The notes beneath the pieces are model-generated. The model had not been told where the DNA came from and did not search any database. It saw only the letters and a list, made by a program, of their open reading frames with translations. The position numbers and the translations under genes were made by a program. Shown piece after piece: positions 3,001 to 63,530 of a DNA stretch of 64,000 nt. The stretch lies in NCBI RefSeq assembly GCF_025148445.1, contig NZ_CP102270.1:2219001-2283000 (forward strand). The letters are read 5' to 3'. The DNA comes from Eshraghiella crossota. GTDB taxonomy: Bacteria; Bacillota; Clostridia; Lachnospirales; Lachnospiraceae. How positions within the stretch are numbered: position 1 is the first letter of the stretch; every line of letters starts with the position of its first letter.

Positions 3001-3599
3001 ATAAGAACTGTAACAGGTACCTTTCTTGTTCTATCTACACGCACGGAAAATACATCATTGGAGTCTGTTTCATACTCTAACCATGCACCTCTGTTAGGTA
3101 TAACGGTACATGAATATAATGTTTTACCAATCTTATCATGACCTATTTCATAATAGATTCCCGGAGAACGGACTAACTGGCTTACAATTACTCGCTCTGC
3201 ACCATTAATAACGAAGGTTCCTGTTGCTGTCATTAATGGAAGATCTCCCATGAAAATGTCATGTTCTTTAATCTCGTCTGTTTCTTTGTTATAAAGTCTT
3301 ACTTTAACTTTGAGAGGAGCTGCGTATGTTGCATCTCTTTCTTTACATTCTTCAATAGAATACTTCTTATCGTCTTCACATAACATAAAGTCTACAAATT
3401 CAAGGCTAAGGTGACCACTGTAATCTGTAATAGGCGATATATCTTCAAAAACTTCTTTGAGTCCATCCTCTAAGAACCACTTATATGAATTCTTCTGAAC
3501 TTCAATAAGATTAGGCATATCAAGAACTTCTTTCTGTCTTGAGTAACTCATTCTGACGTTCTTGCCAAATTTCTTAGGACGTAATCTGTTTTTTTCCAT
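1..3599 (-). CDS. rpoB: RNA polymerase beta subunit, 3' end missing
   Basis: Beta subunit of DNA-dependent RNA polymerase. The reading frame opens at the ATG at 3597-3599 ([20 protein letters not shown]) and stays open for about 1199 codons until the window edge cuts it, so the C-terminal end is absent. The rifampicin-binding segment reads [20 protein letters not shown] followed by [17 protein letters not shown], with the usual sensitive-type residues (Asp, His and Ser at the classical positions). The [13 protein letters not shown] motif near the catalytic centre and the late [17 protein letters not shown] segment are intact. It lies downstream of rplJ-rplL, separated by a terminator and its own strong promoter. 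rpoC presumably follows beyond the edge. The identification is certain. Confidence 0.98.
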
Positions 3600-3677
3600 T
3601 GACGTTTACCCCTGCGCTTTCTATAATTTTCTTTTGCCTATGTGTTGAGCATAAGTCTACACAATAAAGCATTGTCC

Positions 3678-4691: not shown

Positions 4692-4721
4692 GAGTAATTT
4701 TCCTCCTTGTAGAATTAATAT

Positions 4722-4753
4722 AAAAAATGCCTCCCGCAGACCAGGAGACATTA
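4722..4753 (-). terminator. Attenuator terminator of the L10 leader
   Basis: On the minus strand AATGTCTCC and GGAGGCATT form a stem (one G-U pair) followed directly by TTTTTT. It lies between the L10-binding domain and the rplJ start, the arrangement expected for termination control in rplJL leaders. Confidence 0.8.
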
Positions 4754-4754
4754 A

Positions 4755-4846
4755 AAAGTCATGTGCTTAAAATTCTCCTCGGCAGGCGTACTGACTTATG
4801 CCTTACGGCACCTGCTGTCTACGGTAGGGACTTATACAAGTCCAAC
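4755..4846 (-). promoter_or_regulatory. L10 leader (rplJ 5' regulatory RNA)
   Basis: The minus strand between the promoter and the attenuator contains conserved blocks typical of the L10 leader. These are GGACTTGTATAAGTCCC, CTACCGTAGACAGCAGGTGC, and CCGTAAGGCATAAGTCAGTA followed by CGCCTGCCG. Paired blocks (GCAGG/CCTGC, GGTGCC/GGCATAAG) form the L10-binding kink-turn fold. The 3' boundary merges with the attenuator. The family is well established; the exact fold was read by eye. Confidence 0.85.
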
Positions 4847-13403: not shown

Positions 13404-13769
13404 CTAACCTCTCTCGTCTAAAAACATACCTGCAAGTTCCCATACCTTGGCAATCATGTCAAGTGTCTCTTCGGCAGGATATTCTTTAATAACTTTGTCC
13501 GATGTTTTATCAACTATTTTTATAGTAACTCTGTTGGTATCGTTATCATATCCGTACTCTGCAATAGTATTGGAATTGATTTTCTTGTTAATGTCCGATA
13601 CCGCCTGCTTAACCGTACCTTCTGCAGGTACTCCTGATTTAACTGTTTCGGTATTGAATCCGTCAGTTTCAAAATCTGTTACTGCCTGGCTTCTGTCTGC
13701 CTGCACAGTTCTGACTGCGTCTGTGGTATAATCTATACCTGTCGTCTTAGTAATTCCGTTTAATTTCAT
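13404..13769 (-). CDS. flaG: FlaG family flagellar protein
   Basis: A 121-residue protein of the FlaG family, always near fliD and associated with filament length control. The start is the ATG at 13767-13769 (MKLNGITKTTGIDYTTDAV), because the in-frame GTG six bases upstream overlaps GGAGG. The conserved C-terminal half (YGYDNDTNRVTIKIVDKTSD, then VIKEYPAEETLDMIAKVWEL and AGMFLDERG) carries the family signature. It is 11 bases before fliD. Its leader has an excellent CsrA-type hairpin over the Shine-Dalgarno. Confidence 0.93.
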   Translation of the reverse strand: MKLNGITKTTGIDYTTDAVRTVQADRSQAVTDFETDGFNTETVKSGVPAEGTVKQAVSDINKKINSNTIAEYGYDNDTNRVTIKIVDKTSDKVIKEYPAEETLDMIAKVWELAGMFLDERG

Positions 13770-13772
13770 AAT

Positions 13773-13786
13773 CACACCTCCATGTG
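13773..13786 (-). promoter_or_regulatory. CsrA-binding hairpin at the flaG ribosome site
   Basis: The minus strand reads CACA-TGGAGG-TGTG: a perfect 4-bp stem with a hexaloop displaying GGA. ACATGGAGG matches the CsrA consensus and contains the flaG Shine-Dalgarno. csrA is the next gene upstream in the operon. Confidence 0.7.
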
Positions 13787-13840
13787 CAAACCGTGAATGC
13801 TTCTTTTATTTATTTCGGTTATTTCTATAAATAATTTAGA

Positions 13841-14059
13841 CTATTTCAAAAAATTTTTAAGTGCTTCAATTCCGTCAGAATTGCTTGCAGCCTTGTTGGC
13901 TTCCTGTATCTGAATATATACTTCCTTACGGTAAACAGGAACTGACTTAGGTGCGGTTATTCCTATCTTTACCTGGTCGCCCTTTATATCCAGTACAGTT
14001 ATTTCCACGTCATTATTAATTACTATGGATTCTCCGCTTTTTCTGGTTAATGCTAACAT
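13841..14059 (-). CDS. csrA: Carbon storage/flagellar translation regulator CsrA
   Basis: Dimeric RNA-binding repressor that covers GGA-containing ribosome sites. It has 72 residues with the full family core: MLALTRKSGESIVINNDVEI, IKGDQVKIGITAPKSVPVYR and KEVYIQIQEAN, including the RNA-binding strand beta-1 (LTRK) and the VPVYRKE segment. FliW is encoded 14 bases upstream, as in the FliW-CsrA-flagellin homeostatic switch. The flagellin gene is outside the window, but flaG and the FliD-like gene carry candidate sites. Confidence 0.97.
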   Translation of the reverse strand: MLALTRKSGESIVINNDVEITVLDIKGDQVKIGITAPKSVPVYRKEVYIQIQEANKAASNSDGIEALKNFLK

Positions 14060-14073
14060 GTCCCTGCCTCCTT

Positions 14074-14523
14074 TTATTTTTTATTAAAACAATCATATAC
14101 ACTGTAGCGTACAGGATATTCCTCATTATTTACAATAATCTGACATCCAAGCCTTGTTGATATATTTATAACAATCGGAGCTTTGAGATTAATGGTCATT
14201 TTGGTAAGGTCTGACGGTACCGTAAGCACAGAAAGCACATACAACTCTTCATCTGATTCAAATATTCCTATCTGTGCAAGCCATTCATCCTCAACCACCG
14301 GTCTATAATCCTTTATGATGAACATTGGATCCATTACAGGAAAAGCAAGTTCCGGTTCATCCACACATTGGAGCCACATAATTCCATTTTTAGATTCTTT
14401 ATCAGAATCATAAGCTATTACATATCGTGTATATTTTTCAAATCCCAGTAATCCGTTTGGTATTGTGATTATTTTATTATCGTCGATTTCAATTTTTCCA
14501 AATATTCTTGAGTTAATTTCCAT
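14074..14523 (-). CDS. fliW: Flagellar assembly factor FliW
   Basis: Binds CsrA and relieves repression until displaced by cytoplasmic flagellin. It has 149 residues. The start at 14523 (MEINSRIFGKIEIDDNKIIT) is preferred over an ATG six bases earlier that crowds the AAGGAG site. Signature segments are IPNGLLGFEKYTRYVIAYDS, MWLQCVDEPELAFPVMDP, VLTVPSDLTKMTINLKAPIV and INISTRLGCQIIVNNEEYPV. It lies 11 bases after flgL and directly before csrA. Confidence 0.97.
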   Translation of the reverse strand: MEINSRIFGKIEIDDNKIITIPNGLLGFEKYTRYVIAYDSDKESKNGIMWLQCVDEPELAFPVMDPMFIIKDYRPVVEDEWLAQIGIFESDEELYVLSVLTVPSDLTKMTINLKAPIVINISTRLGCQIIVNNEEYPVRYSVYDCFNKK

Positions 14524-14534
14524 AATCATTCTCC

Positions 14535-16028
14535 TTAAATATAATCTAACAGTGATTTCTGAACACAGGACGATGCTGCTGAAAGTGCTGCCTGATAAAG
14601 TGTCCGTGCCGACGAAAATTTGATTACGACATCTTCAAGGTCCACATCTTCATTTCTGGATTTTAAATCATCAAATGTTGTATACTGCTCTGAAAGACGG
14701 TCTTTTGTAAGTGTCAGACGGTTCTGTCTCGCTCCCAGGTCTGCAAGTTCAAGGGACACTGTCTGCTGATATTCCTTAACGTTGGTGATTTCTTTTGAAA
14801 ATGTTTTTTTCATGTTATCAAGAGCATAGTCATGCTCTTTTTCTGATGCCGCTATCATAGTATCTATGTTCTTCTTTTCATCATCGCTGTATGCTCCGCT
14901 TTCCTTCATGGTTTTCAGCTTTGCAATTTTGTTTTCAATATCAAGAACGCTCTGAAGTGCATTACACATATCATCGATATCACGTCCTATATCATAACTC
15001 AGGGCATTGCGTCCAAGTGTGTTTACCTGTAAAGACTGGCTGAAATTTACCGTATACGATATACTTTCATCACTTTCAAGAGTATATTTCACCGGATTAC
15101 CGGGATTGGTAATATCGGTACAGTTAAAATACATTTCAGGTCTTACATCACCTGCATTGAAACTATCCTTCTGATATGTAAAAGACATTCCGTCACAGTT
15201 GGAGAACTTCGTATATAAGTCATCCGTCATAACTACTTCACCCGTATCGTATATGTAATAAAGGCTGTCTGTAGCCTTATCAAAAGTTCCGTCCGATACC
15301 ATTTTTTCAAATTCACTTCTTGATACTGCATTTGGTGTATAGTCTGTGGTTCCGTTGGCATCCGTCACAGAAAATTTCAAGTCATTTCCACTGTCAAGTG
15401 CTTTTGCACAGCCCTGATAAGCAAGGCGGACACGATATACTTTTCTTGTCTCCGGATATTTTTCAGCATTAATACCTGTAACTTTGGTTGCATCCACACT
15501 GTTTTTCATGATGTTATCAGTTGTTACCGCTTCAGCCTTAAAAGTCTCTGTAATTTCGTATTTTTTATCTGATTCCGTTGATGTAAGGAATGTAAAAGAT
15601 GTATCGGTCTTATAACCCGTAAAGCAATATCTTCCCGCATAATCTGCATTAGCCTCGGAATAAATTGCCGTTCTGTACTGTTTTAAAACATCTATAATGG
15701 CACTTCTGTCGTTGGTTGTAAACTGGTCCGATGAACCCTGGTTACAATACTGGAAAATATCAGATAAAATTCCGTCCATATTATTAAGTGAACTATGTGT
15801 TACATCAAGCCATGATTCCGCATCCGGAATGTTATGTTTCAGGTACTGGTTAATCTCGGAAAGGCTTGATCTTAATGATAATGCTCTTATTGCAACTATA
15901 GGGTCATCAGACGGCCTTGTAATTTTCTTTTCCGTTGCAAGTTCATTTTCTGAAGTATTCAGGTTATTTTTTGATTTTGAAACATTTCTCAATGTCTGGT
16001 TCATCATCATTGTATTGGTTATACGCAT
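14535..16028 (-). CDS. flgL: Flagellar hook-associated protein FlgL (HAP3)
   Basis: Junction protein between hook and filament, secreted through the flagellar export apparatus. It has 497 residues. The N-terminal D0/D1 helices begin MRITNTMMMNQTLRNVSKSK and contain ATEKKITRPSDDPIVAIRAL. The C-terminal helix carries RNEDVDLEDVVIKFSSARTL, then YQAALSAASSCVQKSLLDYI. The protein is longer than the ~300-residue Bacillus or Escherichia FlgL because of a central insertion at about residues 140-330, probably exposed on the outside of the junction. It starts 14 bases after the first flgK. Confidence 0.95.
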   Translation of the reverse strand: MRITNTMMMNQTLRNVSKSKNNLNTSENELATEKKITRPSDDPIVAIRALSLRSSLSEINQYLKHNIPDAESWLDVTHSSLNNMDGILSDIFQYCNQGSSDQFTTNDRSAIIDVLKQYRTAIYSEANADYAGRYCFTGYKTDTSFTFLTSTESDKKYEITETFKAEAVTTDNIMKNSVDATKVTGINAEKYPETRKVYRVRLAYQGCAKALDSGNDLKFSVTDANGTTDYTPNAVSRSEFEKMVSDGTFDKATDSLYYIYDTGEVVMTDDLYTKFSNCDGMSFTYQKDSFNAGDVRPEMYFNCTDITNPGNPVKYTLESDESISYTVNFSQSLQVNTLGRNALSYDIGRDIDDMCNALQSVLDIENKIAKLKTMKESGAYSDDEKKNIDTMIAASEKEHDYALDNMKKTFSKEITNVKEYQQTVSLELADLGARQNRLTLTKDRLSEQYTTFDDLKSRNEDVDLEDVVIKFSSARTLYQAALSAASSCVQKSLLDYI

Positions 16029-50119: not shown

Positions 50120-50689
50120 TTAAGCCCATGGGTTGGCAGATTTCGGTGTCCGCACACCGGTAAGCAGGTACTGTTCCCACAAAAACCACTTGCCATCGGA
50201 TCCACGCTGACGCATTTTGATTGGACGCGGATCATCTGCACCGCCGCAAGGAATAAACAGTTTCATATAACCCGGTTCCTCACCTGATACATGATTACTT
50301 TCAACTACAATCATGTATGGCTCGGCAGGCGTATAATCGTTATCCGGTGTAGCTCCTTTGAAATATGTAAATGGCAGATACGTCTTGCCATCGCGAAAAC
50401 GATCATTAATAAATGATATCTCCTGTCCATTTAACGGACGTGGTCCACGAAGCCAGTTTAACATTTCGGTCCCAATGTTCTTATCTGCTGCATATGCACA
50501 AAGAGCAAGAACCGTAAGTGCCGCAGTTTTAAATGGTGTATCAAGACTTGCCTCCGGCAATGCCTGCATTTCTGCAAGGCTTTCAGGCAACGAAGTGAAG
50601 GTAAACGTTTCCTGTTTGTTGCCGATAGAATGTGCAGCGGAATTTACCGCCTGTTTTGCTGTGCTTTTAAGTTTGTCAAAAATACTCAT
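50120..50689 (-). CDS. DUF6935-like protein
   Basis: A 189-residue protein starting MSIFDKLKSTAKQAVNSAAH. It has an amphipathic N-terminal helix, TFTFTSLPESLAEMQALPEA, then LDTPFKTAALTVLALCAYAA, then GPRPLNGQEISFINDRFRDG and FKGATPDNDYTPAEPYMIVV. The last part (RQRGSDGKWFLWEQYLLTGV) is strongly conserved in similar Clostridial proteins as I recall them, assigned to a domain of unknown function. The function is unknown. It lies between the cysteine-rich surface gene and a small unknown gene. Confidence 0.7.
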   Translation of the reverse strand: MSIFDKLKSTAKQAVNSAAHSIGNKQETFTFTSLPESLAEMQALPEASLDTPFKTAALTVLALCAYAADKNIGTEMLNWLRGPRPLNGQEISFINDRFRDGKTYLPFTYFKGATPDNDYTPAEPYMIVVESNHVSGEEPGYMKLFIPCGGADDPRPIKMRQRGSDGKWFLWEQYLLTGVRTPKSANPWA

Positions 50690-50720
50690 AAATCATCTCT
50701 CCTTTGATAATTTTTATGTG

Positions 50721-50769
50721 TTGAAATAACGTTCTTCGGTAAGTACCCGTTGTGTTTAGGTTATTTCAA
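50721..50769 (-). repeat. 10-bp inverted repeat downstream of the cysteine-rich gene
   Basis: TTGAAATAAC (50721-50730) and GTTATTTCAA (50760-50769) are perfect arms around a 29-base loop. It lies between the stop of the large surface gene and the start of the DUF6935-like gene. It lacks a clear T-run; it may be a weak terminator or an operator. Confidence 0.4.
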
Positions 50770-50785
50770 TTTAGGTAACATCTGT

Positions 50786-53700
50786 TTATTCTGCCTCGGG
50801 TTTCTTATTCTTTTTGCCTTTTACACCCAACATGGTCAGAACGCCGCCGCTGACAAACAGAGCACCCATCCAACCGATGAGGTTGTTTCTGTCACCGGCC
50901 TGAGGATATTTGTCAGCATCATCCTTTGAAGGCTTACCGGTGTTGCCGGTATTGTCGGTATTGCCGCTATTGTCGGTACTGCCGCTATTGTCGGTACTGC
51001 CGCTTCCGGTGTTGCCGGTATTGTCGGTGTCAGTAAGCTTATCTATGATGGTGTTTTCGCTGCGTTTATTGCCGCAAACGGTACATTCTTCGTGCCTAAT
51101 TCCGGTTTCTGTCTTGGTAGCTTCTCTGTCGATTTTCCAAACGAATGAGTGAGCTGCAAAGCCAGCCTTGTCTCCGCACTGGCACTCATACCAATGATTG
51201 GTGTCATCACTTTTCCAATCTGTGCCGTAGCCATGGGTATGAGCCGGAGGCACATCCTTATAGGTAGCCTCAATCTTAACATCATTACCCGGCATGGTGA
51301 AAGTGGTGGTAGCACTGGTAACGTCTGTCAGGGTAACATTACCTTCCAACACAATCCACTTGTCAAAGACCTTGCCGTTCTCCGGTTCATCCGCCGCAAC
51401 GGTCACAACAGTATCCTGTGCAATCTTCTCGGTAATATGGATGCCTGCAACGGAAGCCACGCCCTTGATGATCGTGACAGCGTACCTGGTCGCAGTAGGA
51501 TTCCCTACGAACCTTGTCATGCCGCAACCGGCACGCTGGCAGGTGTAGAGAATTCCTTCACTCTTACCCTGTGTTGCAGGGGTGCCGCTATCCCAGTCGT
51601 GGCTGAGTTTGTTGATGACATGACCGTAGCGGAAAATCTGTCCGCAGTCACCTGTGCATTTAAAGTCACCGCTATAACCTACTGTGGTACATCCGGGGTC
51701 TTTCTTATTTATCAAACTGTAGTTACCGGCAATTTCATGGAGGGATGGTGTAGGGACGCCCTTCTGTGCGATTCTGTTGCACACTGTGCAGTATTGATTA
51801 CCGGAATAGCCCTTTTCAATACAGGTTGCCATTCTTACATCCCGCAACTCAAATGGTCCACTATGTCTGAAATCTCCGGTCTCGCCTTTTACGGTGCCGC
51901 CACAAGCTGTGCAGCGATAATCGCCCTCATAGGCGCGGTGCCTGCAGTCGCCCGATCTGGCGTTATATCGTCTGCCACCATGGCTTGCGTCAGTGGTTGC
52001 AGAATTATTTGTGCCATAGTAATACAGTGGCTGCAGCGTGCCGGTATGGCCGGCGTTTGCAGGGGGGTATATATCCGAACCGGCACTGATGATATGGCCG
52101 CAGTCCGCACAGGCGGTGTCGCCGGTGTAGCCCTTGCGGTCGCAGACCTGCGCCTTCGCATTGAGCACCGTGGTGCCACCGCTGTGGTCACAGCCTGCAT
52201 AGACCGGCTCGAAGAAGAATTGGCCGCCGCCGGGTGCGCCCATGGCGCTGAACTCCGGAATCGTGCAGCCCCACTCAAGGGCAGAGCCGTTGGTTACCAG
52301 CTTGAACAGAGTCTTCGCCTCGTTGGTATTCCAATTTTTATGAACCGGTGCCATGCTGTCGGACACGTTGTATTCGCGGAGATACTCCACCTTCCAGCCG
52401 ATGGCTTTCTGGCCGGTTCTCTCCTCGGGATAAAGGCGGATCTTGTCGCCGGGCTTGACGATCATACGGGTTGCCCGGCCGTTTTTCACCGTCACAATGG
52501 CGGTGTCCTTTGTCCAATCGCCGTCAATTTTTTCCGTCTCTTTGTATTCGCAGACGCTGCATTCAGCCTCCATGCCGCCTTTGCTGCCTGTGGTGTCAGG
52601 ACACAAAACCACATTCCAGCGGCCCCAGCTATGGGGAACCATGATGAACTCCTCGCAGCCGGGAACCTTGCACTTTTCGGGGTGGGCATAGCCGGACTCA
52701 AGGATGAGCTGCTCCACCGTCTTGGTCGAGCCGCCGATGTTGAAGGTATATTCATAGATACTGGTAAAGCCGGTGTAATCCCAGTTCCAGCCGTACTCAT
52801 GGACATGGCTCTTCACAGGAACGATATAGTCGCAGACGGAACATCTGAGCACATCGACTCTGCCGCCGCCTACTGCGTCATAGCTTCTGTCAAGCACAAA
52901 GGTATGCGGGAAGATGCGCTCCTTGGAGCCGGTGGTCATATAATGCGCTTCGTAAGAGCCTGCTTCAAACAGGCACGGAAGCTTGTGTCCATCGCATTTC
53001 GGGTCATTGCCTACGGCAGCTTCTGTTCTGCTCCCGTCCGGGTTTACATGCCAAACATAGTATCGCGGCGTTCTCTCGCTGTCGTCCGTGGGCACACGCA
53101 CACCCGCCTGCTTATAGCTGTAGGCATGGGTGGCAGTCAGCTTTGCCTCCGCCGTTTTCAGGGTGTCCGAAGCGTCGCCCTTTCTGCCGATGACGCAGTA
53201 GTAGGAGTAGTCCTCCTGGCAGGCCTGGGTGGAAACCGGCATCTTCAGTGTGGAGGTCGTCACACCCTTGTAATACCAATCATCCGGCAGCTTGTAGGGC
53301 GCAGCCGTGGGATTCTCATTATCCTTCCGATACCACTGATAGGTCAGCTCGTCGCCCTTCAGGCTTCTCGCCGCGACGGAAAAGGTGACCTGGTTATTTT
53401 CATAGAACAGCAGGCCGTTTTCCGGCTCTTCGTTATAATCGTCGTAGATAGAGGTCTTACACTTTACGTTCTTTGGCTGACGGGTTATGACGATGGAGCT
53501 GCCGCTGATGTAGCCGCAGACCTTGCACACGCCCTTGGCGTCATATTCATGGTTGGCAGCAGCAAGCTTTTCACCGTTGCAATATCGGCAAGGATGCCAA
53601 TGCTGCGTTCCATCGGCCGCCCAGGTGGCGGAAGCTAAGTGCGTATGTCCGGCGCCGGAATGCTCTGCATGCAGATGATTTCCAAAATCAGAGTCGCTGA

Positions 53701-54670
53701 AGCACCAGTCGTCATGATCGCAGCCCATCGCTTTCACGGCATCGAGGCAGCAGTCCTTGCAGCGCTGATCGCAGCCGTCCTCGCAGGGATCGCTGTCATG
53801 GAAGCACAGGCCGCAGTCCTCGCAGAAGTGATCCGCGTAGTCCGTATCCATTGCGCACATCCCCTCGGAGCAGTCGGAGTTGCCCTCGCAGCACTCCTTG
53901 CACAGCTCGCAGGTTTGGCAGAACTCGTCCTCGTCCTCCTTATCCGTGACCCAGCCGTCGCAGCCCGGGCAGATGTGATCATCCCACTCGGCGCTTTCCA
54001 CGCAGGTCTCACCATCCGGACAGCCGCCGTCCTCGGAGTTGATCTCGCAGCACTCCTTGCACAGACCGCAGTCCTCGCAACTCTCCTTGGCCAGCAGGCA
54101 TTCCTCGCACTGCTCACAGGCCGTGTGGCAATCAACGCAGTGGATGACGCCGGTATCATCGTCGTCCACGCACTCGTCCACCGCGCCGAAGCAGCTGTCG
54201 CACAGCGAGCAGTGCATCGGGTCGCTGTCATCGTTTGCGCAGTCATCGCAGAAGCCGCAGGTGTCGCAGATGGTTATGGAGCAGCAAGGGCCCTTATAGC
54301 AGTTGCCGCACAGCTGATCATCCTCGCCGATGTAGCACTTGGCGCAGGTGGAGCAGTGCTTTTCCTCCATGCACTCCGCGCACTTGTAGCACTCCTCGCA
54401 CCAGTAGGGCGTATCTCCAAAGCACACACCGCAGTCGTTACAATGAGTTTCAACCCAGCACTCGTAGTTGCAATCAATGGTGCAGAACAGGCAGTCACAC
54501 ATATAATCACTGCCAAAATGGTAGTGGTCGCAGTTAGGACAATCGAAACCGTCGTCGTAGTCGTCCCAAAAGGCATGGACGGGAACCGACATACCCGGAA
54601 CCATTGTCAATAGCATTATAAGCACCAGCAAAATGCTGATAATTCGACTTCGCATTTTTGTTTTTTTCAT
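50786..54670 (-). CDS. Giant cysteine-rich surface protein, PQAGD sorting signal
   Basis: A 1294-residue secreted protein. Signal peptide 1-32 (SILLVLIMLLTMVPGMSVPV). Residues ~43-390 hold about sixty cysteines in CxxC and CxxCxxC series with many Asp/Glu (for example CEDCGLCKECC). An Ig-like segment follows (~395-510, LTYQWYRKDNEN). CGY/CSVC modules follow, then four C-x3-GYxGD-x2-C-x2-C repeats (~860-1040; e.g. KGYSGNQYCTVC). Next come an InlB-type beta-grasp repeat (~1105-1180, TTFTMPGNDVKIEATY), a CxCG...CTVCG module, a Thr/Asn/Gly spacer, YPQAGDR, a membrane segment and KGKKNKK. It is probably wall-anchored by a variant sortase. The 5' half of the gene is far richer in GC than the 3' quarter and the flanks. 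The function is unknown. Confidence 0.85.
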   Translation of the reverse strand: MKKTKMRSRIISILLVLIMLLTMVPGMSVPVHAFWDDYDDGFDCPNCDHYHFGSDYMCDCLFCTIDCNYECWVETHCNDCGVCFGDTPYWCEECYKCAECMEEKHCSTCAKCYIGEDDQLCGNCYKGPCCSITICDTCGFCDDCANDDSDPMHCSLCDSCFGAVDECVDDDDTGVIHCVDCHTACEQCEECLLAKESCEDCGLCKECCEINSEDGGCPDGETCVESAEWDDHICPGCDGWVTDKEDEDEFCQTCELCKECCEGNSDCSEGMCAMDTDYADHFCEDCGLCFHDSDPCEDGCDQRCKDCCLDAVKAMGCDHDDWCFSDSDFGNHLHAEHSGAGHTHLASATWAADGTQHWHPCRYCNGEKLAAANHEYDAKGVCKVCGYISGSSIVITRQPKNVKCKTSIYDDYNEEPENGLLFYENNQVTFSVAARSLKGDELTYQWYRKDNENPTAAPYKLPDDWYYKGVTTSTLKMPVSTQACQEDYSYYCVIGRKGDASDTLKTAEAKLTATHAYSYKQAGVRVPTDDSERTPRYYVWHVNPDGSRTEAAVGNDPKCDGHKLPCLFEAGSYEAHYMTTGSKERIFPHTFVLDRSYDAVGGGRVDVLRCSVCDYIVPVKSHVHEYGWNWDYTGFTSIYEYTFNIGGSTKTVEQLILESGYAHPEKCKVPGCEEFIMVPHSWGRWNVVLCPDTTGSKGGMEAECSVCEYKETEKIDGDWTKDTAIVTVKNGRATRMIVKPGDKIRLYPEERTGQKAIGWKVEYLREYNVSDSMAPVHKNWNTNEAKTLFKLVTNGSALEWGCTIPEFSAMGAPGGGQFFFEPVYAGCDHSGGTTVLNAKAQVCDRKGYTGDTACADCGHIISAGSDIYPPANAGHTGTLQPLYYYGTNNSATTDASHGGRRYNARSGDCRHRAYEGDYRCTACGGTVKGETGDFRHSGPFELRDVRMATCIEKGYSGNQYCTVCNRIAQKGVPTPSLHEIAGNYSLINKKDPGCTTVGYSGDFKCTGDCGQIFRYGHVINKLSHDWDSGTPATQGKSEGILYTCQRAGCGMTRFVGNPTATRYAVTIIKGVASVAGIHITEKIAQDTVVTVAADEPENGKVFDKWIVLEGNVTLTDVTSATTTFTMPGNDVKIEATYKDVPPAHTHGYGTDWKSDDTNHWYECQCGDKAGFAAHSFVWKIDREATKTETGIRHEECTVCGNKRSENTIIDKLTDTDNTGNTGSGSTDNSGSTDNSGNTDNTGNTGKPSKDDADKYPQAGDRNNLIGWMGALFVSGGVLTMLGVKGKKNKKPEAE
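50937..51027 (-). repeat. Low-complexity spacer repeats in the surface gene
   Basis: Short imperfect repeats built from CGGTATTGCCG/CTATTGTCGGTACTGCCG-like units (plus strand) encode the NTGNTGSGSTDNSG-type wall-spanning spacer before the sorting signal. Such stretches slip and vary in length between strains. Confidence 0.7.
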
Positions 54671-54763
54671 ACTATCATTTCCTCTCTAAAAATTATTTTA
54701 AGATTAATTTAAGCAAAGAAGTTCTCAGACACTAATCCAAAGGGAAAAGCTTTGATAAGGCCC

Positions 54764-55699
54764 TTACTCTTTGCCTGCCGTATCTTTTCGGATTAAAACT
54801 ATTACCAAAATACCTACAACAATCACCAATGCAACGGTAACAGCAACGATAACAGCTATCATCCATCGTGGAAAAGAAACCTTATTGCTCTCCACAGAAG
54901 AAGTTTGTTCTGTATTTTCTTCGTGATTTTCTTTTAGTTCGGTACTCGCGTCTTCATCTTTGGCAGCACTGCTTTTTTCAACATTGTTGCTTTCAAGACT
55001 TCCGCTGGTTTTTTCATTATTGTTGCTTTCAAGACTTCCGCTGGTTTTTTCATTATTGTTGCTTTCAGGACTTCCGCTATATATTACCGGCTCTGTCATA
55101 GTTACCTTACAGACAAGGCAGCTATAGGTCTTTTCGCCATCGGCTTTGGGAGCAGGTTCCCTGGTTATTGTTCCCGCGTCCCAAATATGCCCGGCAGCAG
55201 GAACTTCAGCTCGTTCAGTAACACCACAATCACATTCCCGAGTCTTAATGCCTGCCTCTGTACAGGTTGGCTTTGTGGTTACCATCCACTCACTGAAACT
55301 GTGGGTGTGCACTGAACTGTTTTCGTAAAACTCCACACGGATCAGGCGGCTGTATGTCGGCTCACTCTCTACACCTCCGACCACATTCCAGGCAGCATAA
55401 CAGTACCATTTCACTCCTAATTCCTCCGGCACCTGATAGCTGTCTCCTTCTGCGTAGTCAATGGCACGGATCATTGCCATGTTTTCTATATCCGTAGCAT
55501 ACCACTGATATTTCAGCGTACCGCCATCGGGCACACTGGCATTTGTGAATAAGATAATACCGTCACTGCCAATAGGCATATAGCAATCTGGCATTTCCCC
55601 TTCAATCACGGGTTTCGCCGGTCCATCTGCACTAACTGTTGTGGCAGCAAATCCCACAAATGATAATAAAAACACAAAACATAAAAGTAGCTTTTTCAT
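54764..55699 (-). CDS. Secreted Ig-like protein with C-terminal membrane anchor
   Basis: A 311-residue protein. Signal peptide 1-24 (LLLCFVFLLSFVGFAATTVS). An Ig-like region follows (~28-125, GTLKYQWYATDIENM). Then a cysteine/histidine module (~130-205): HTHSFSEWMVTTKPTCTEAG and CDCGVTERAEVPAAGHIWD, of the kind repeated in Clostridial surface proteins. A spacer of three SLESNNNEKTS-type repeats and one hydrophobic helix (WMIAVIVAVTVALVIVVGIL) with a short basic tail complete it. There is no sortase motif, so it should remain membrane-anchored. It shares the module type with the gene at 50786 and lies just before it. Confidence 0.82.
   Translation of the reverse strand: MKKLLLCFVFLLSFVGFAATTVSADGPAKPVIEGEMPDCYMPIGSDGIILFTNASVPDGGTLKYQWYATDIENMAMIRAIDYAEGDSYQVPEELGVKWYCYAAWNVVGGVESEPTYSRLIRVEFYENSSVHTHSFSEWMVTTKPTCTEAGIKTRECDCGVTERAEVPAAGHIWDAGTITREPAPKADGEKTYSCLVCKVTMTEPVIYSGSPESNNNEKTSGSLESNNNEKTSGSLESNNVEKSSAAKDEDASTELKENHEENTEQTSSVESNKVSFPRWMIAVIVAVTVALVIVVGILVIVLIRKDTAGKE
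54983..55076 (-). repeat. 36-bp tandem repeat, 2.6 copies
   Basis: Units start at 54983, 55019 and 55055 (ATTGTTGCTTTCAAGACTTC then CGCTGGTTTTTTCATT on the plus strand). They encode 12-residue SLESNNNEKTSG-like repeats of the spacer. Near identity suggests recent expansion. Confidence 0.85.
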
Positions 55700-55766
55700 T
55701 TAACCTTCCTTTTCGAGTTTTCCAAATGTAATTTCTTTCCACGTATGCACAGGGAAAAAATGCCAA

Positions 55767-56585
55767 TTAGAAGCTGCCTCCACCTCCGCCATGGGTTGTT
55801 CCGGAAGAAGAGCTATGCGTGCTGCTTCCTCCGTCTGAACCGTTGTCTTTTGGTTTCGCAGTACTTGTGACTGTGGTATACAGGAACATATCGCGCCTCT
55901 CGGTGATGTTCATACTGCCGGCTTTCATGTAACTGTTCGCTGCCGGTTGAAAACGAACTGTTTTGAGTTTGCGCTTCATAGCACCTACTGTAATGAAAGA
56001 CAGTAAAAATCCAATTATAACCGCAAACAGTATCCAGCCCGGTTTCATAGGTTCTTTAGGCATATTACCGGTATCGTATGGGTTTCCGGTTCTTGCTTTT
56101 GTAATAAAGTCGTCGCAAAGCTCAGCAAAAGTATTAAAAGCGGCCTCATAATCGCCATCCGACAGATGTTCTTTTATCTTATCACCGATATATTGAATTC
56201 CCGCATCGGTGAATGCTGTGATGCCGTAGCCGGTAGTTGATATGTACCAGTCACGATTCTCCATGTTGATGAGCAGAAGCAAACCATCCCTGTTGTTGCC
56301 GTAACCGTAACCGTTATAATCGTAGGTATCATCGGCATAGTCGACGAGCGTAGCTCCGTTCAGCGTTTTCACGGTCACGATGACGATATCCATCTTTTGA
56401 CGCACGCGGATCTCTTCAAGTTTTTCCCGTAGTGCCGTCTCCTCACTGTCGGACAATAAATCAGCATCATCTACTACCCGGTCCTTGTCACCTGCAAACC
56501 CTGAAGTATCATTGGCAAAGGCAGGAACTGTAAAACATATACAGAGCACAAGAACAATCAAAAACTTCCATATTTTCTTTATCAT
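55767..56585 (-). CDS. ydjH: TPM-domain membrane protein (YdjH-like)
   Basis: A 272-residue protein. Signal peptide or first helix 1-24 (LIVLVLCICFTVPAFA), then a TPM domain (~33-165): DADLLSDSEETALREKLEEI, DGLLLLINMENRDWYISTTG and YGITAFTDAGIQYIGDKIKE. A second membrane segment (ILFAVIIGFLLSFITVGAM) and a cytoplasmic tail ending THGGGGGSF follow. This matches YdjH of the Bacillus ydjFGHI cluster, where YdjG/YdjH recruit PspA to the membrane. It follows the YdjG-like gene by 12 bases. Confidence 0.85.
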   Translation of the reverse strand: MIKKIWKFLIVLVLCICFTVPAFANDTSGFAGDKDRVVDDADLLSDSEETALREKLEEIRVRQKMDIVIVTVKTLNGATLVDYADDTYDYNGYGYGNNRDGLLLLINMENRDWYISTTGYGITAFTDAGIQYIGDKIKEHLSDGDYEAAFNTFAELCDDFITKARTGNPYDTGNMPKEPMKPGWILFAVIIGFLLSFITVGAMKRKLKTVRFQPAANSYMKAGSMNITERRDMFLYTTVTSTAKPKDNGSDGGSSTHSSSSGTTHGGGGGSF

Positions 56586-56597
56586 TCTGTTTCCTCC

Positions 56598-57692
56598 TTA
56601 AAATAGTCCAATCAGATGAAGGAGCCAAACTACACCATATACAGCGGCACTGTATATGACCGCCATAAGAAATGTCCAACGCCTCGCCGCAGCTTTATCC
56701 ACCGGCAGATCACCGACGAATTTTCCGGTCTGTCCGTTCATGGCAAATGTGTATTTGTTTCCGTTCCATGTTGTGTTAAGCAACCATACAGGATACAGTG
56801 CATAGCGTGCCTTGCCGCCACGGAACTGCACACTGCTGTATTCTGTCCTGACTGTGGCATATCCCTGAACCGTTCCGGCAAAGGAATCCTCGGTGGAGCG
56901 CTTAACACGCTTATTAGCACGGTCAATACTTGCTTCGGCAGTCACATCGTATTTATCTGCCAGATACCCTGCAAGATACGCTGTCTGAAAATCCACCGCT
57001 TCGGAAAAATCGTATGGTTCAATAGATTCCATAAGGTCATCCGCCATTTTTGACGAGCCATCCACCGGAACATGCTCAAAGCCGATGCTGCCACCACGAT
57101 GTACCATATAATAGCTGGTTTCGGTGTAATTGTAGTCTTTGTCACTCCAGGTGCGCACCCTGGAGGCACGATAGCGAATCTGTGCATCCACATCAGTATC
57201 AAAAAGCCAGAAAGGGACATAAATTCCCTTGATCTCACCAATGTGGTTTTGATCCTTAAAAACCTTAGGCAGCAGTCTCTTACCGGTCAGGTGCTTCATC
57301 AGCCCCGCCTTTGCCGCCTTTTTATCAAGCTTGAATGGGATCACAAGATCCGGCTTTAAAGCACCCGAGAACTGGTTCATCATCACCACGGGATTGTTGC
57401 AGAAAGGACAGGCAGTAGCTGCTGTGTTGGCATCGCCGACAATTTCACCTCCGCAGGACTTGCACACATAGGAGCGCAAACCGTCGGTTTCTCCCTCCTG
57501 CCAGTCTCCTCCGGCATTGTTTTCCCATTCCATATTGTCTTTTTTTTCGTTCTGCAACTCGGCGTCGTAACCCTTCAGTACCTCCATTTCAAACTCAGTG
57601 TCGCAGAAAGGACACTTCATCTTCTGGAGTGTGCTGTCAAAGGCTATCGCCCCGCTGCAGCAGGGACATTTATATTCCTGCAAGTTTTGCAT
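56598..57692 (-). CDS. ydjG: Zinc-ribbon membrane protein (YdjG-like)
   Basis: A 364-residue protein. It has two N-terminal zinc ribbons (CPCC...CPFC at ~9-30 and CKSC...CPFC at ~77-97), a large soluble domain (LKPDLVIPFKLDKKAAKAGL, GIYVPFWLFDTDVDAQIRYR, YALYPVWLLNTTWNGNKYTF) and C-terminal membrane helices (WTFLMAVIYSAAVYGVVWLL). It resembles Bacillus YdjG and related TFIIB-type zinc-binding proteins. It lies between the SPFH gene and the TPM gene, so the three likely form one envelope-stress complex. Confidence 0.83.
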   Translation of the reverse strand: MQNLQEYKCPCCSGAIAFDSTLQKMKCPFCDTEFEMEVLKGYDAELQNEKKDNMEWENNAGGDWQEGETDGLRSYVCKSCGGEIVGDANTAATACPFCNNPVVMMNQFSGALKPDLVIPFKLDKKAAKAGLMKHLTGKRLLPKVFKDQNHIGEIKGIYVPFWLFDTDVDAQIRYRASRVRTWSDKDYNYTETSYYMVHRGGSIGFEHVPVDGSSKMADDLMESIEPYDFSEAVDFQTAYLAGYLADKYDVTAEASIDRANKRVKRSTEDSFAGTVQGYATVRTEYSSVQFRGGKARYALYPVWLLNTTWNGNKYTFAMNGQTGKFVGDLPVDKAAARRWTFLMAVIYSAAVYGVVWLLHLIGLF

Positions 57693-57784
57693 GAAAAGAT
57701 CTCCTTTCTTAGTAAAAATTCAACAATTAAATGTTGCATGAGTCACATCTGCTTTGGTGAACAGATATTCCTTCACCGGGCATC

Positions 57785-59119
57785 TTATTTTCTATCATTA
57801 TCATCAAATATATCGCCGCATTCAGGGCAGAACTTAGGTGGATTGGTCGGATCCTCCGGCTCCCAGCCGCATTTATCACAGCGGTAGAGCGGTGCACCTT
57901 CAGGTTTTTTTGCACCGCAGTTCTGGCAAAACTTACCCTTATTTACCGCGCCGCACGAACAAGTCCATCCGCTTTCGTCTGCCGGCTTCTGAGAACCGCA
58001 CTCCGGACAGAATTTTCCGGTAGCCATGGTACCGCAGGTACATTTCCAAGTGCCTGGTGCAGGTGCTTGCTGCTGTTGTGCTTGCTGCTGTTGTGCCTGC
58101 TGTTGTGCCTGCTGTTGGCCCATAGCAAACAGGTTTTGAGCGTTCATGCCTCCTGCATTCATCGCCATGCCCATTCCCATAAAACCTGTCATGGCACCGG
58201 CAGAGTTGCCTGCCGCAGTCTTCATGGCATCTGCCTGGGCGCCTACAAGGGTTGCCCCAGCCATAGCAGGGTCACGCATAATAGCCACGCGCTGAGCCTG
58301 CTTGATCATATCTGCATCCTCATCCGGAAGAGTAACCGAACCAAGTGCAATGCTTACGATTTTCAAGCCACGCAGCTCACCCCACTTAGCGGAAAGTGCC
58401 ACATTCATGGCGTCCTCCAGTTCGGTGTTATGGCTGACAATCTGATTTGGGCGCAGCTCCAGGTCGGACAGCTTACCGAAAGCCGGCTGCAAAGCGCTGA
58501 TAAATTCTGTTTTCAGCTGGCTTTCCAGCTCATCACGGGTATACTCCTGCTCCACATTACCGCACACATTAGTGTAAAACAGCAATGGATCGACAATTTT
58601 ATAGGAATACACACCGGAGCATCGCACCGAAACATCCACATCCAAACCGATTTTAGAATCAACCACACGGAAAGGGATAGGGTTTGGCGTGCCGAACTTG
58701 TTGTCAATCAGCTCCTTTGTATTAAAATAGTACACACGCTGATCCTTGCCTGTGTCACCACCATAAGTGAAACGCTTTCCGATAGTCTTGAAGCTTGCCA
58801 AAATACTCTCACCTAGATTGCCGGAAAAGATAGAGGGTTCAGTGGAAGTATCATATGTAAATTCGCCGGGTTCAGCACAGACCTCCACGACCTTACCCTG
58901 TTCAACAATAATCATGCACTGCCCATCAGCTACGGCAATACCAGAACCATTGGAAATAATATTGTCATTTCCTTTCGTATTGGAAGATCGTCCGCTGATC
59001 CGCTTTTGCCCCTTGGTAACAAGTACCTCCTTAGGCATGGACTCGCAGTAAAAGAATTCCTTCCATTGATCAGCAAGAGTACCTCCCAACGCACCGATAC
59101 CAGCTTTAATAAGTCCCAT
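57785..59119 (-). CDS. ydjI: SPFH-domain, zinc-ribbon protein (YdjI-like)
   Basis: A 444-residue protein. An SPFH-type domain (virion core-like group) covers ~20-300: ADQWKEFFYCESMPKEVLVT, EVCAEPGEFTYDTSTEPSIF and GELRGLKIVSIALGSVTLPD. A Met/Gly-rich stretch and a glutamine/alanine-rich linker (~335-365) follow. Three C-terminal zinc ribbons complete it: CTCGTMATGKFCPECG, CSCGAVNKGKFCQNCG and CDKCGWEP...CPECGD. It has no membrane helix of its own. It is the first gene of the ydjI-ydjG-ydjH cassette. Bacillus pairs these with PspA (YdjF), which is not in this neighbourhood. Confidence 0.88.
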   Translation of the reverse strand: MGLIKAGIGALGGTLADQWKEFFYCESMPKEVLVTKGQKRISGRSSNTKGNDNIISNGSGIAVADGQCMIIVEQGKVVEVCAEPGEFTYDTSTEPSIFSGNLGESILASFKTIGKRFTYGGDTGKDQRVYYFNTKELIDNKFGTPNPIPFRVVDSKIGLDVDVSVRCSGVYSYKIVDPLLFYTNVCGNVEQEYTRDELESQLKTEFISALQPAFGKLSDLELRPNQIVSHNTELEDAMNVALSAKWGELRGLKIVSIALGSVTLPDEDADMIKQAQRVAIMRDPAMAGATLVGAQADAMKTAAGNSAGAMTGFMGMGMAMNAGGMNAQNLFAMGQQQAQQQAQQQQAQQQQAPAPGTWKCTCGTMATGKFCPECGSQKPADESGWTCSCGAVNKGKFCQNCGAKKPEGAPLYRCDKCGWEPEDPTNPPKFCPECGDIFDDNDRK

Positions 59120-60414: not shown

Positions 60415-60498
60415 TCACCAAAGGAGATTTTTTCCTTTCGCATGTGCATTAAGCTTACCAACATCATTGGTATTCACTTTGCCATCACCATTAGTTAC
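60415..60498 (-). pseudogene. Out-of-frame dockerin-like repeat remnant
   Basis: Directly after the TAA of the dockerin-like gene, the -1 frame encodes TNGDGKVNTNDVGKLNAHAK followed by GKNLLW and a stop. This is a third EF-hand/dockerin half-repeat of different sequence type, ending in LLW like a natural C-terminus. It has no start codon or ribosome site of its own. It is either a remnant left by recombination at the gene's 3' end or the alternative end of a frameshifted product. Confidence 0.6.
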
Positions 60499-63400
60499 CA
60501 AAGCGGCTGTGTTTTGTTCACATGCTTGAGCAACCGGGAACAGTCCTTGATGTTGACAGCAGAATCCCCGTTTGTGTTCGCACATTTCAGCGCATAGGTA
60601 TTGGTCAGCAACTGGGTCTTGTTCACATGCTTGAGCAACCGGGAGCAATCCTTGATATTGACGACGCCGTCCCCGTTTACATCTCCATGTAGCCAAATCT
60701 CCGCGTTTTGGGTCTTCGTGCCGGTGGTCACACTCACCGTATACTCCCGGGTGACATGGTTTTTCTTCGACACCTTCATAGTGTAGGTGCCGGGAGTGAT
60801 GCCGGAAATGGTATAGGAGACGGAATTTCCCTTTACGGTGGTGTTATATGACGCCGAAGAAGAGCCACTCTTAAACAACTGCACCGTCACTGGGTCCGTG
60901 GTGGAATTATAACTCTTCACCGTGCCGCTGACAGAGCCGCTGGCGTTAGGGTCAAACACCTCATAGGAGCAATACACGTGCCAGATATGCCCGTCTGTAA
61001 AGTCCATATTATCCATCCATGAGTTTACATACTTTCCGTTCACCTTGAAATCTCTATTATTTTTCGGGTATACATGACCCAATTCTTCGCCGCCCTCAAA
61101 TCCAATCCGAAGATCAAGGGTATAATCTTTTCCGACCTCAAATTTGTCATATGTCCCCATTGGTTTGTAATCGGGTCCCAGCCATTGCATCGACAGCACC
61201 TTCATATTAGACGGCAGGCTTGTCGGTTTAGCATAGCCGGCAAAAACAGCGGGGCGGTCCCCCGCCTTAGGCTCCTGTATAAGGATATTGGTCCCGTATT
61301 CCTTTCCCTCGCTGTTCGGCTCCAACAGTCGGGAGGTCCGGTATTTCTGGGTTATCGGGGAATAGTCGTACCAATCGCCCTTATAGACCGTGCTGTATGT
61401 TTCCGCAGAGTCGAATATCCCGTTGGCTCTGTAGCCTGCGGGCAGGATCACCTTTACCGAAGCGTTTTCGGGGAGATAATAGCCAAAACCGGGCTCAACA
61501 TCGAAGTAGACATAACACATATCGTCATCGCCCAATTGACCGGCCTCTACACCGTAAGAGCCGTAGGCGGGATCGTATACCACCGTATTCTTGTAAGTAT
61601 ACTTTTTCGGCTCATTCGATACGAGCTCCGTAAAAAAGGTGTCGGTGCCGAGACGGAAGTTTTTGAGCGTGCCGCGCACATCGGTCAGCCTTCGCTTTGC
61701 CACAAGGCTGATAGATAGCTGTCGGTTAGAGCTGCCCTTGATGAGTTCTTTGTTTGTAACCTTTGTATTCTGCACATTCAGCTTAATTCCTTGGGATGAC
61801 AGCACAGACGACCCGCTGAATTCGTATCCGTGCCGTGCTCTTAAATAAAAGTCCATAACATACGCATCATCTATGGAACTATACTCCCACTCGGAGGGGA
61901 TACCATCCCACGGAATGTGATAGCATTCTGCCAATGTCTCCGAATGCATGGAAATCTTGTGGTTGGCGCTGGTTTCTTCGGTAAATTCGCCCCCCGCCTG
62001 CAGAAGCTTTACGTTATATATGTAGCGTTTACCGCCGACCTTATTGTCCATCTTCACATCAAAGTAGAGACGCTCATAATAAAGGGTTCCCGCATCTGTG
62101 AGTTCATAATCCTTCAGCAGATTCGTATATCTGAAAGTATCGTCGTCCGGATCGGTCGCCGACTTGCAGACCCAGTAGAACTCTATACTGTGTGTTCCGA
62201 TGCGGTCCACATAAAAGTCATACAAATAGGCGTCTTCATAGCCCACTTGCACACCCGGATTGCACAGGCGGCCGAAGAAATGGAATTCGATCCTTCCCGC
62301 GTCCTTCAGCTTTTGCATCCACTCGGGCATATACAGAATCTCCGCAGACATCTCATAGCCCAGACCCGCCTCCAGATCCCTTACGATATCGCCGTTCTTC
62401 ACCTCTTTGAGGTTGAGATTGAAACGTATCCGCGGTTTATCGTTGCCATGATTCAGAATCAGATCATAGCGGCCTGTGTTTTTGGTGTTTCCGGATATAT
62501 TCCATTCGCTGCCGATCTTGCCGATGCTCTTGTAATACTTAAACATCTTCACCGGGTCGGATTCGTTGTTGCTGCCGAAAAATCTCAATCCGTCGACTCC
62601 CAGATTTGCGGAGACGTTCAGCTCCTCCGCGTTGAGGATCTTGAAGTTATTCATATGGCAGCCCCACGGTGCGGCGTTAAACTTGGGGTTTGTGATATTA
62701 AGGTTAACACTCTTGGTGGTGTCGATGGTGAATGTGATTGTCTGGATCAGGGTATTCACATCTCTGTAGCTGTTGCCACAGGTAACACTCAGCGCAGTAT
62801 CCTCCAGAACCGATGTATTTTTCGCCACGATGGCATAGTCGGGGCTGGTTTTCTTAGGGGCATCCTTCGTGAAGATACCAAGCTTTCCGTTTCCAAGCAG
62901 CTCAAAGTTGCCACAGCCGTTCAGGCTTCCCTCCGACTGTGCCAGATCGATGACCGCGCCGGTCACACCATTTTGAGGACAGTAGGCAGTCTTATTCTTA
63001 TACCGGGTGCTATGGCGGAAGGTGACATAGGCGCCATTGGTCAGAATCATCTTCAGATCAACGCCGGGGGCATACAGGGCGGATAGATCCAGATCGTCGA
63101 ACAGAACCAGTGTCAGAGACCGACCCTCAAGCCCCGAAAGATCCAGAAAATCATTCTCGATACGCGTCCAATACTTAAGAATACCGTTATCGTATAACAC
63201 GACCCGCTGAAGATTTGTATCGCTCCTATAACTTTCGCGTAATCCCGAGTTAAGCCTGCAATCTTCCGGGTCTATAGCAATCGAACGACGGTCTACCTTG
63301 CCGTTTTTATAGAAAAAATAGCCGTAACCGTGGAGTATCTCCGTTCCCTCGACCAAATTGGTCAGTGCCGGATACCCTGTAGCAGAGGCTTGTGCTATCC

Positions 63401-63530
63401 CCTGGGTGGTACCGGTCTCCTCACCGCCGCTTTCAGCTCTGGCTGTCAACACGGAAAGCGGCAGTAAACCCACGATCATTATCAATGCGAGTAAAAAGCT
63501 GAGCCATTGATTTCGTTTACTTGTTTTCAT
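60495..63530 (-). CDS. Large secreted protein with dockerin-like C-terminus
   Basis: A 1011-residue secreted protein. Signal peptide 1-32 (LSFLLALIMIVGLLPLSVLT). The first ~380 residues look like a beta-solenoid or leucine-light repeat region (NLQRVVLYDNGILKYWTRIE, DLSGLEGRSLTLVLFDDLDL). A long middle of beta-rich modules follows. A carboxypeptidase-regulatory-like fold (~870-945, VQLFKSGSSSASYNTTVKGN, ISGITPGTYTMKVSKKNHVT) is next. The C-terminal ~65 residues are dockerin-like: GDVNGDGVVNIKDCSRLLKH, then NTNGDSAVNIKDCSRLLKHV. There is no sorting signal; attachment would be by a cohesin-type partner. GC is higher than in the core genome. The ligand is unknown. Confidence 0.85.
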   Translation of the reverse strand: MKTSKRNQWLSFLLALIMIVGLLPLSVLTARAESGGEETGTTQGIAQASATGYPALTNLVEGTEILHGYGYFFYKNGKVDRRSIAIDPEDCRLNSGLRESYRSDTNLQRVVLYDNGILKYWTRIENDFLDLSGLEGRSLTLVLFDDLDLSALYAPGVDLKMILTNGAYVTFRHSTRYKNKTAYCPQNGVTGAVIDLAQSEGSLNGCGNFELLGNGKLGIFTKDAPKKTSPDYAIVAKNTSVLEDTALSVTCGNSYRDVNTLIQTITFTIDTTKSVNLNITNPKFNAAPWGCHMNNFKILNAEELNVSANLGVDGLRFFGSNNESDPVKMFKYYKSIGKIGSEWNISGNTKNTGRYDLILNHGNDKPRIRFNLNLKEVKNGDIVRDLEAGLGYEMSAEILYMPEWMQKLKDAGRIEFHFFGRLCNPGVQVGYEDAYLYDFYVDRIGTHSIEFYWVCKSATDPDDDTFRYTNLLKDYELTDAGTLYYERLYFDVKMDNKVGGKRYIYNVKLLQAGGEFTEETSANHKISMHSETLAECYHIPWDGIPSEWEYSSIDDAYVMDFYLRARHGYEFSGSSVLSSQGIKLNVQNTKVTNKELIKGSSNRQLSISLVAKRRLTDVRGTLKNFRLGTDTFFTELVSNEPKKYTYKNTVVYDPAYGSYGVEAGQLGDDDMCYVYFDVEPGFGYYLPENASVKVILPAGYRANGIFDSAETYSTVYKGDWYDYSPITQKYRTSRLLEPNSEGKEYGTNILIQEPKAGDRPAVFAGYAKPTSLPSNMKVLSMQWLGPDYKPMGTYDKFEVGKDYTLDLRIGFEGGEELGHVYPKNNRDFKVNGKYVNSWMDNMDFTDGHIWHVYCSYEVFDPNASGSVSGTVKSYNSTTDPVTVQLFKSGSSSASYNTTVKGNSVSYTISGITPGTYTMKVSKKNHVTREYTVSVTTGTKTQNAEIWLHGDVNGDGVVNIKDCSRLLKHVNKTQLLTNTYALKCANTNGDSAVNIKDCSRLLKHVNKTQPLW
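60501..60690 (-). repeat. Direct DNA repeat encoding the two dockerin halves
   Basis: The two segments coding NIKDCSRLLKHVNKTQ are nearly identical at the DNA level (plus-strand CACATGCTTGAGCAACCGGG occurs twice, about 105 bases apart). This implies recent duplication or gene conversion, and a hot spot for deletion. Confidence 0.75.

Follow-up and report, generated by a model that had tools for sequence, protein, structure and literature searches.

A giant surface protein of Eshraghiella crossota carries near its N-terminus 60 cysteines within 302 residues, and this cysteine array defines an undescribed family, present in neither Pfam nor NCBIfam and patchily distributed among unrelated gut bacteria. 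The gene lies in a stretch of 64,000 nucleotides (contig NZ_CP102270.1, positions 2,219,001 to 2,283,000), which was analysed as a whole and is called the window here. With about even confidence, the array is proposed to form an exported, probably wall-anchored head that would be zinc-clamped, disulfide-free and digestion-resistant on top of a surface stalk. The N-terminal tip would consist of seven tandem His/Cys metal-binding units, each beginning with H(x)CxxC, in which zinc or another soft divalent metal would be clamped in many Cys4/Cys3His-type sites, with the thiols most likely kept reduced in the anoxic gut. Metal clamping would let the domain fold in the absence of disulfides and despite having little hydrophobic core, and a stalk of Ig-like, GYxGD-CxxC, InlB-like and zinc-binding modules would hold it away from the wall, its likely role being that of an adhesive or shielding head resistant to digestion. 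The sequence-level support comprises the export-type architecture, the conservation of cysteine and histidine, horizontal transfer, the exchange of anchors and homology to a predicted zinc-binding domain (ZBD).

The open reading frame is free of internal stops, and its product contains 96 cysteines (7.4 %, against a median of 1.0 % for the 52 gene-like open reading frames of the window). Residues 34-335 hold, next to the 60 cysteines, 13 histidines, 80 aspartates plus glutamates and 11 lysines plus arginines, giving a net charge of -69. They include 28 CxxC and 13 CxxCxxC motifs and are organised in seven units, most of which begin with H(x)CxxC. In the other open reading frames of the window, cysteines peak at 14 per 300 residues, compared with 60 here, and hydrophobic residues make up 23.5 % of the array versus 34 % of the remaining protein. 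The acidic domain of about sixty cysteines described in a first-pass annotation of this DNA is thus real, although it measures about 300 rather than 350 residues. The rarity ascribed to such a cysteine density was also confirmed, yet a whole undescribed family exists. The gene and its parts are, from the N- to the C-terminus of the product:

50786-54670, minus strand: gene of the giant cysteine-array surface protein, 1294 amino acids (open reading frame and translation; homologs in the same frame)
54572-54670, minus strand: signal peptide region, residues 1-33 (hydrophobic N-terminus with KKTKMR start, also in all full-length homologs)
53666-54571, minus strand: Cys/His array, residues 34-335, seven H(x)CxxC-led units with 60 Cys and 13 His (no Pfam, NCBIfam or PDB family)
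54371-54571, minus strand: exchanged allelic block of the array, residues 34-100 (codon identity and synonymous divergence)
53501-53647, minus strand: His/Cys module after the array, residues 342-390, HTH..HWHPCRYC..HEY..CKVCG (motif match to ZBD-like modules)
53111-53488, minus strand: putative Ig-like stretch, residues about 395-520 (pattern ..LTYQWY..YYCVI.., without a Pfam match)
51635-52153, minus strand: four C-x3-[GA]YxG[DN]-x2-CxxC modules, residues 843-1010 (regular-expression scan; also in relatives)
51251-51430, minus strand: InlB B-repeat-like domain, residues 1081-1140 (PF18998, E 4.9e-10)
51044-51250, minus strand: ZBD2-like module, residues 1141-1209 (phmmer match of residues 1113-1209 to the Thomasclavelia ramosa IgA protease, 9qa6, 85.7 bits)
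50789-50908, minus strand: sortase-type anchor, residues 1255-1294, with YPQAG, hydrophobic helix and basic tail (sequence; weak NF053819 match)

The four copies of C-x3-GYxGD-x2-CxxC announced earlier are present at residues 843, 909, 950 and 994, only one of them fitting the motif exactly. The ZBD2-like module is followed by a linker rich in Gly, Asn, Thr and Ser and then by a tail in the order YPQAG (residues 1255-1259), hydrophobic stretch and KGKKNKK. The parts of the predicted sorting signal are therefore there, with YPQAG in place of a canonical motif; the NF053819 match of this region is below the cut-off, and the host genome has one sortase gene. Residues 34-1080 gave no Pfam match up to E 1 and no NCBIfam match. 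A known family with an assigned non-metal function, which the first-pass annotation had considered, was not found, since the array is not covered by a family of Pfam, NCBIfam or the PDB.

An artefact of translation, arising from a frameshifted gene or from a gene on the opposite strand, has a practically negligible probability. Plus-strand open reading frames of 829 and 324 amino acids do lie opposite the gene, but they vary in extent among the homologs, as expected of mechanical shadows. The same frame is open in seven close homologous genes and eight distant ones, and over the array the nonsynonymous divergence (dN) is well below the synonymous divergence (dS). Comparison of the homologs thus rules out this explanation, and with it the low-quality, frameshifted translation that had been feared.

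The conservation of the array is highly selective. The window array was aligned with those of relatives at the loci L025, L026, L070 and L071, at about 44 % identity, and three histidines just past residue 335 were included in the count. Invariant in this alignment were 58 of 60 cysteines and 12 of 16 histidines, as opposed to 37 of the 236 other residues (16 %); the excess is significant both for Cys (Fisher p 2e-33) and for His (Fisher p 9e-7). When the more distant L073 was added, 54 of 60 cysteines, 9 of 16 histidines and 11 of 236 other residues stayed invariant. Strict retention of Cys and His together with a low hydrophobic content is the pattern of metal ligands. LIM, RING and zinc-knuckle domains as well as metallothioneins have a similar repeating CxxC/His spacing and ligand-only conservation, a likeness at the level of sequence pattern; they differ in being intracellular and share no sequence match with the array, which is exported and strongly acidic. 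In disulfide-knot domains, strict retention of His is not expected. Ligand-selective conservation is thus better explained by metal ligands than by disulfide knots, iron-sulfur sites or a meaningless, frameshifted translation.

Iron-sulfur clusters or a redox-active array for electron transfer or the quenching of oxidants would suit the 13 CxxCxxC motifs and the anaerobic host, but this is very improbable. Ferredoxin families were not matched in the Pfam scan, the profile search of the PDB returned a single weak 4Fe-4S match (E 0.46), and the only CxxCH of the array is not kept in the relatives. Moreover, a protein with a Sec-type export signal would not be expected to have iron-sulfur clusters assembled outside the cytoplasm. 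The earlier suggestions of cluster binding and of a redox-active shield accordingly found no specific support.

The closest characterised relative of any part of the protein is the IgA protease of T. (Clostridium) ramosa. Residues 1113-1209 align with chain residues 1043-1138 of PDB entry 9qa6 (85.7 bits, phmmer), with matched H, HW..C.C, H and C..C positions. The authors who described this protease predict that its ZBD1 and ZBD2 bind zinc at His2Cys2 or Cys3His sites and possibly have a new fold, and they report no disulfides in spite of its 24 cysteines (PMC12237041). Besides the ZBD2 homology, the two proteins have predicted export, putative sortase-type anchoring and Cys/His-rich modules in common, zinc being only predicted in the protease too. 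The protease differs by its catalytic M64 domain and has no 60-Cys array; no peptidase family, and so no M64 peptidase (HExxHxxxGxxD), appeared in the Pfam scan of the window protein. With the conservation of Cys and His and this C-terminal match to a predicted zinc domain, the multi-metal or disulfide-free zinc array of the first-pass annotation has become the best-supported reading. We infer that the metal is zinc, that the thiols are reduced and that the head serves adhesion or shielding.

It is unlikely that the CxxC motifs are instead paired as disulfides and form a rigid coat domain of an EGF/furin-like or VSP-like kind. The extracellular location and the even number of cysteines (60) would fit such a knotted array, and the literature on the variant-specific surface proteins (VSPs) of Giardia allows for disulfide cross-links. 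Obligate anaerobes tend to keep cysteine out of exported proteins, although some Clostridia have a functional DsbA or VKOR (PMC12453122). A search of the host genome for VKOR, which did not extend to DsbA, DsbB and BdbD, found no such gene. Disulfides would also leave the conserved histidines at the starts of the units unexplained, and the protease that shares the C-terminal module is free of disulfides.

Digestion resistance of the head is suggested by a working analogy with Giardia, whose VSPs carry CXXC arrays and become sensitive to trypsin upon treatment with chelators or reductants, which added metal reverses (PMC6341118). The VSPs (PF03302) resemble the window protein in having a CXXC-packed extracellular region in a gut organism, and their protease resistance depends on metal and/or the state of the thiols. 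They are eukaryotic and anchored differently, and His-led units are not described in them. PF03302 is not among the Pfam matches of the window protein up to E 1, and VSP membership is not claimed. A digestion-resistant head might thus resemble, in principle, the coats of gut protozoa, which are rich in CXXC and resist proteases in a metal-dependent way.

Several points weigh against a zinc-clamped, disulfide-free head. With the search of the host genome confined to VKOR, disulfide formation keeps some likelihood, and the authors of the Giardia VSP study themselves allow disulfides besides metals (PMC6341118). No solved structure matches: a profile of the array built from nine family members gave chance-level matches to the PDB, with best E values of 0.012-0.46. 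An AlphaFold2 model of the array, built with six close homologs, had a mean predicted local distance difference test score (pLDDT) of 31.6 and is not interpretable, while that of the ZBD2-like module reached a pLDDT of 49.9 and yielded neither a fold nor a site geometry. An adhesive or shielding role, finally, is suggested by the architecture only.

About 15 relatives were found altogether in nearly 2,000 clostridial genomes. Five of them (L006-L010) are near relatives with 82-89 % protein identity, which were obtained, with one contig-edge fragment, by scanning a genome collection; profile searches, covering 1,964 genomes in all, added eight more distant members. Vescimonas fastidiosa has a shortened form on a plasmid or second replicon. 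The L027 protein, the 5' end of whose gene is cut, has about twice as many array units, and a relative of 2,904 residues (L072:735-9449) has a Cthe_2159-type carbohydrate-binding domain in addition to its cysteine array. Among 397 genomes sampled from the family to which the host belongs, the gene was found only in the window genome itself, and it was found in none of the 97 closest relatives. Viral contigs did not match the cysteine-array protein by single sequence or by profile, and phage records matched the C-terminal module only. A literature search returned nothing relevant on a bacterial family of cysteine-array proteins.

The array is attached to the cell in different ways in different relatives. 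Sortase-type tails are present in the window protein, L008 and L012, SLH domains at the C-terminus in L006 and L009, and a transmembrane helix with a basic tail in L025, L026, L070 and L071, while L027 ends in a dockerin-like tail (E 0.002, under the Pfam cut-off). Because several unrelated anchor types carry the array, its display, and presumably its function, is argued to lie outside the cell.

Base composition and divergence indicate that the gene is a recent horizontal acquisition. The GC content at fourfold sites is 0.678 for the whole gene, 0.815 for the array and 0.598 for the C-terminal third, compared with 0.10-0.51 for neighbouring genes and 0.82 for L006/L009. Among homologs in different hosts, dS is about 0.15-0.4 across most of the protein; relative to homologs from other bacterial families it amounts to about 0.2, and the family of proteins is thus exchanged across bacterial families in the gut. 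Over residues 34-100 it rises to 1.2-1.4 between two allele classes, versus about 0.2 in the next block, and since this is far above the rest of the protein the gene is a mosaic; codon identity in residues 34-100 is 94-99 % among the window, L006 and L012 and 70-87 % between the window and L008/L010. The C-terminal third of the window protein has diverged further from the homologs than the rest, and the same genome encodes another protein with a C-terminal module that is 59 % identical; the anchor end was probably adapted locally. The insertion is delimited by comparison with a congeneric genome, G001:

50691-55766, no strand assigned: inserted segment relative to the empty site of G001, where 42 bp separate the DUF6935 gene from the TPM gene

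In the window, the gap between these two genes is 5.08 kb and holds the cysteine-array gene and a gene for an Ig-like protein. No convincing target-site duplication was seen at this insertion. DUF6935 genes adjoin cysteine-array genes in three unrelated lineages (window 50120-50689, L070:7091-7786 and L009:16259-16744); that of the window is native, as the congener without a cysteine-array gene has it too. The TPM-domain, zinc-ribbon and SPFH/zinc-ribbon genes at 55767-59119 form a conserved block, kept in the congener, which looks like a membrane-stress set. Farther away in the window, a 1011-residue exported protein with a C-terminal type I dockerin (PF00404, E 2.8e-7) is encoded at 60495-63530, and a ribosomal protein L10 leader (RF00557) lies at 4712-4842, upstream of rplJ as expected.

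In L007, L008 and L010, the cysteine-array gene follows a four-gene operon encoding a 7TM-domain protein, a HATPase kinase, a LuxR-type response regulator and a protein of 128 amino acids. The block of operon and cysteine-array gene begins in each case at a tRNA 3' end, the tRNA gene being a different one in all three (Pro-CGG, Pro-GGG and Arg-CCT); these 3' ends are abutted by a common end of 71 bp, TAATGTGGAG[AG]CAAAAAAGATGTCTCC... (L007:3030-3710, L008:2018-2330 and L010:3658-3802). The three different tRNA 3' ends and the common end indicate that the block is an island targeting tRNA 3' ends. No attR copies of the tRNA 3' ends were found within these three loci and no recognised integrase within the block. 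In L008, direct repeats of 1 kb of the IS3 family, 99.9 % identical (2606-3638 and 13700-14732), flank the cassette in a composite-transposon-like arrangement. An element of about 14 kb with serine-recombinase and relaxase genes interrupts the gene in Ruminococcus bicirculans (L010:9583, L075:13308), the remainder of the gene being located on the far side.

The window retains a trace of this operon directly upstream of the cysteine-array gene:

54711-54791, minus strand: remnant of the 3' end of the 128-amino-acid gene that precedes the cysteine-array gene in L007/L008/L010 (local alignment)
54764-55699, minus strand: gene of an Ig-like membrane protein, 311 amino acids, with a ZBD-type CDCG module; not a conserved partner (open reading frame, Pfam, locus comparison)

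The decayed end comprises 81-90 nt, with local alignment scores of 62-73 versus a shuffle maximum of 24-26, and it also supplies, in another frame, the last codons of the Ig-like gene. The Ig-like gene thus appears to have replaced the regulator genes in the lineage of the window. The joint structure with the Ig-like protein that had been suggested from the gene pair and its shared CDCG modules could not be upheld: no homolog of the Ig-like gene occurs at the 12 other loci with a cysteine-array gene, it has a native-like synonymous GC, in contrast to the foreign value of the cysteine-array gene, and its final codons stem from the operon remnant. Regulators recur elsewhere, as the divergent gene in L025, L026 and L071 encodes a HisKA_7TM-LuxR regulator and a membrane LuxR regulator is encoded nearby in L006/L009. 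Because sensor/LuxR regulator genes adjoin members in several lineages, expression is probably sensor-controlled in most of them, the window being without such regulators. In L073, a 988-residue exported protein with a similar C-terminal end is encoded divergently beside the cysteine-array gene (L073:7425-10391).

The regulators beside several members would also be in keeping with an extracellular metal store or scavenger, a bacterial surface metallothionein buffering or capturing zinc or copper. Its capacity, judged from the number of ligands, would be perhaps 15 or more tetrahedral sites, and the array is strongly acidic with only the ligands conserved. Such a role is improbable, as the examined members have neither a metal transporter nor a recognisable metal regulator next to them, the protein has a long stalk with adhesin-type modules, and some relatives are dockerin-like or have carbohydrate-binding modules. 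Equally doubtful is a mobile, sensor-regulated surface metallo-array, a disulfide-independent cassette with swapped anchors that would store zinc or capture it in competition with host or neighbours.

The array of the proposed metal-clamped head is best regarded, it is suggested, as conserved cargo that is traded among unrelated gut Clostridia and fitted with the host's own type of anchor; the four kinds of anchor single it out as the selected part. Surface proteins of 1,200-2,900 residues with roughly 60 or more ligand-conserved cysteines break the rule that obligate anaerobes usually avoid cysteine in their exported proteins. The family therefore offers a direct test of whether metal, and not disulfide, glues folds together outside anaerobic gut cells.

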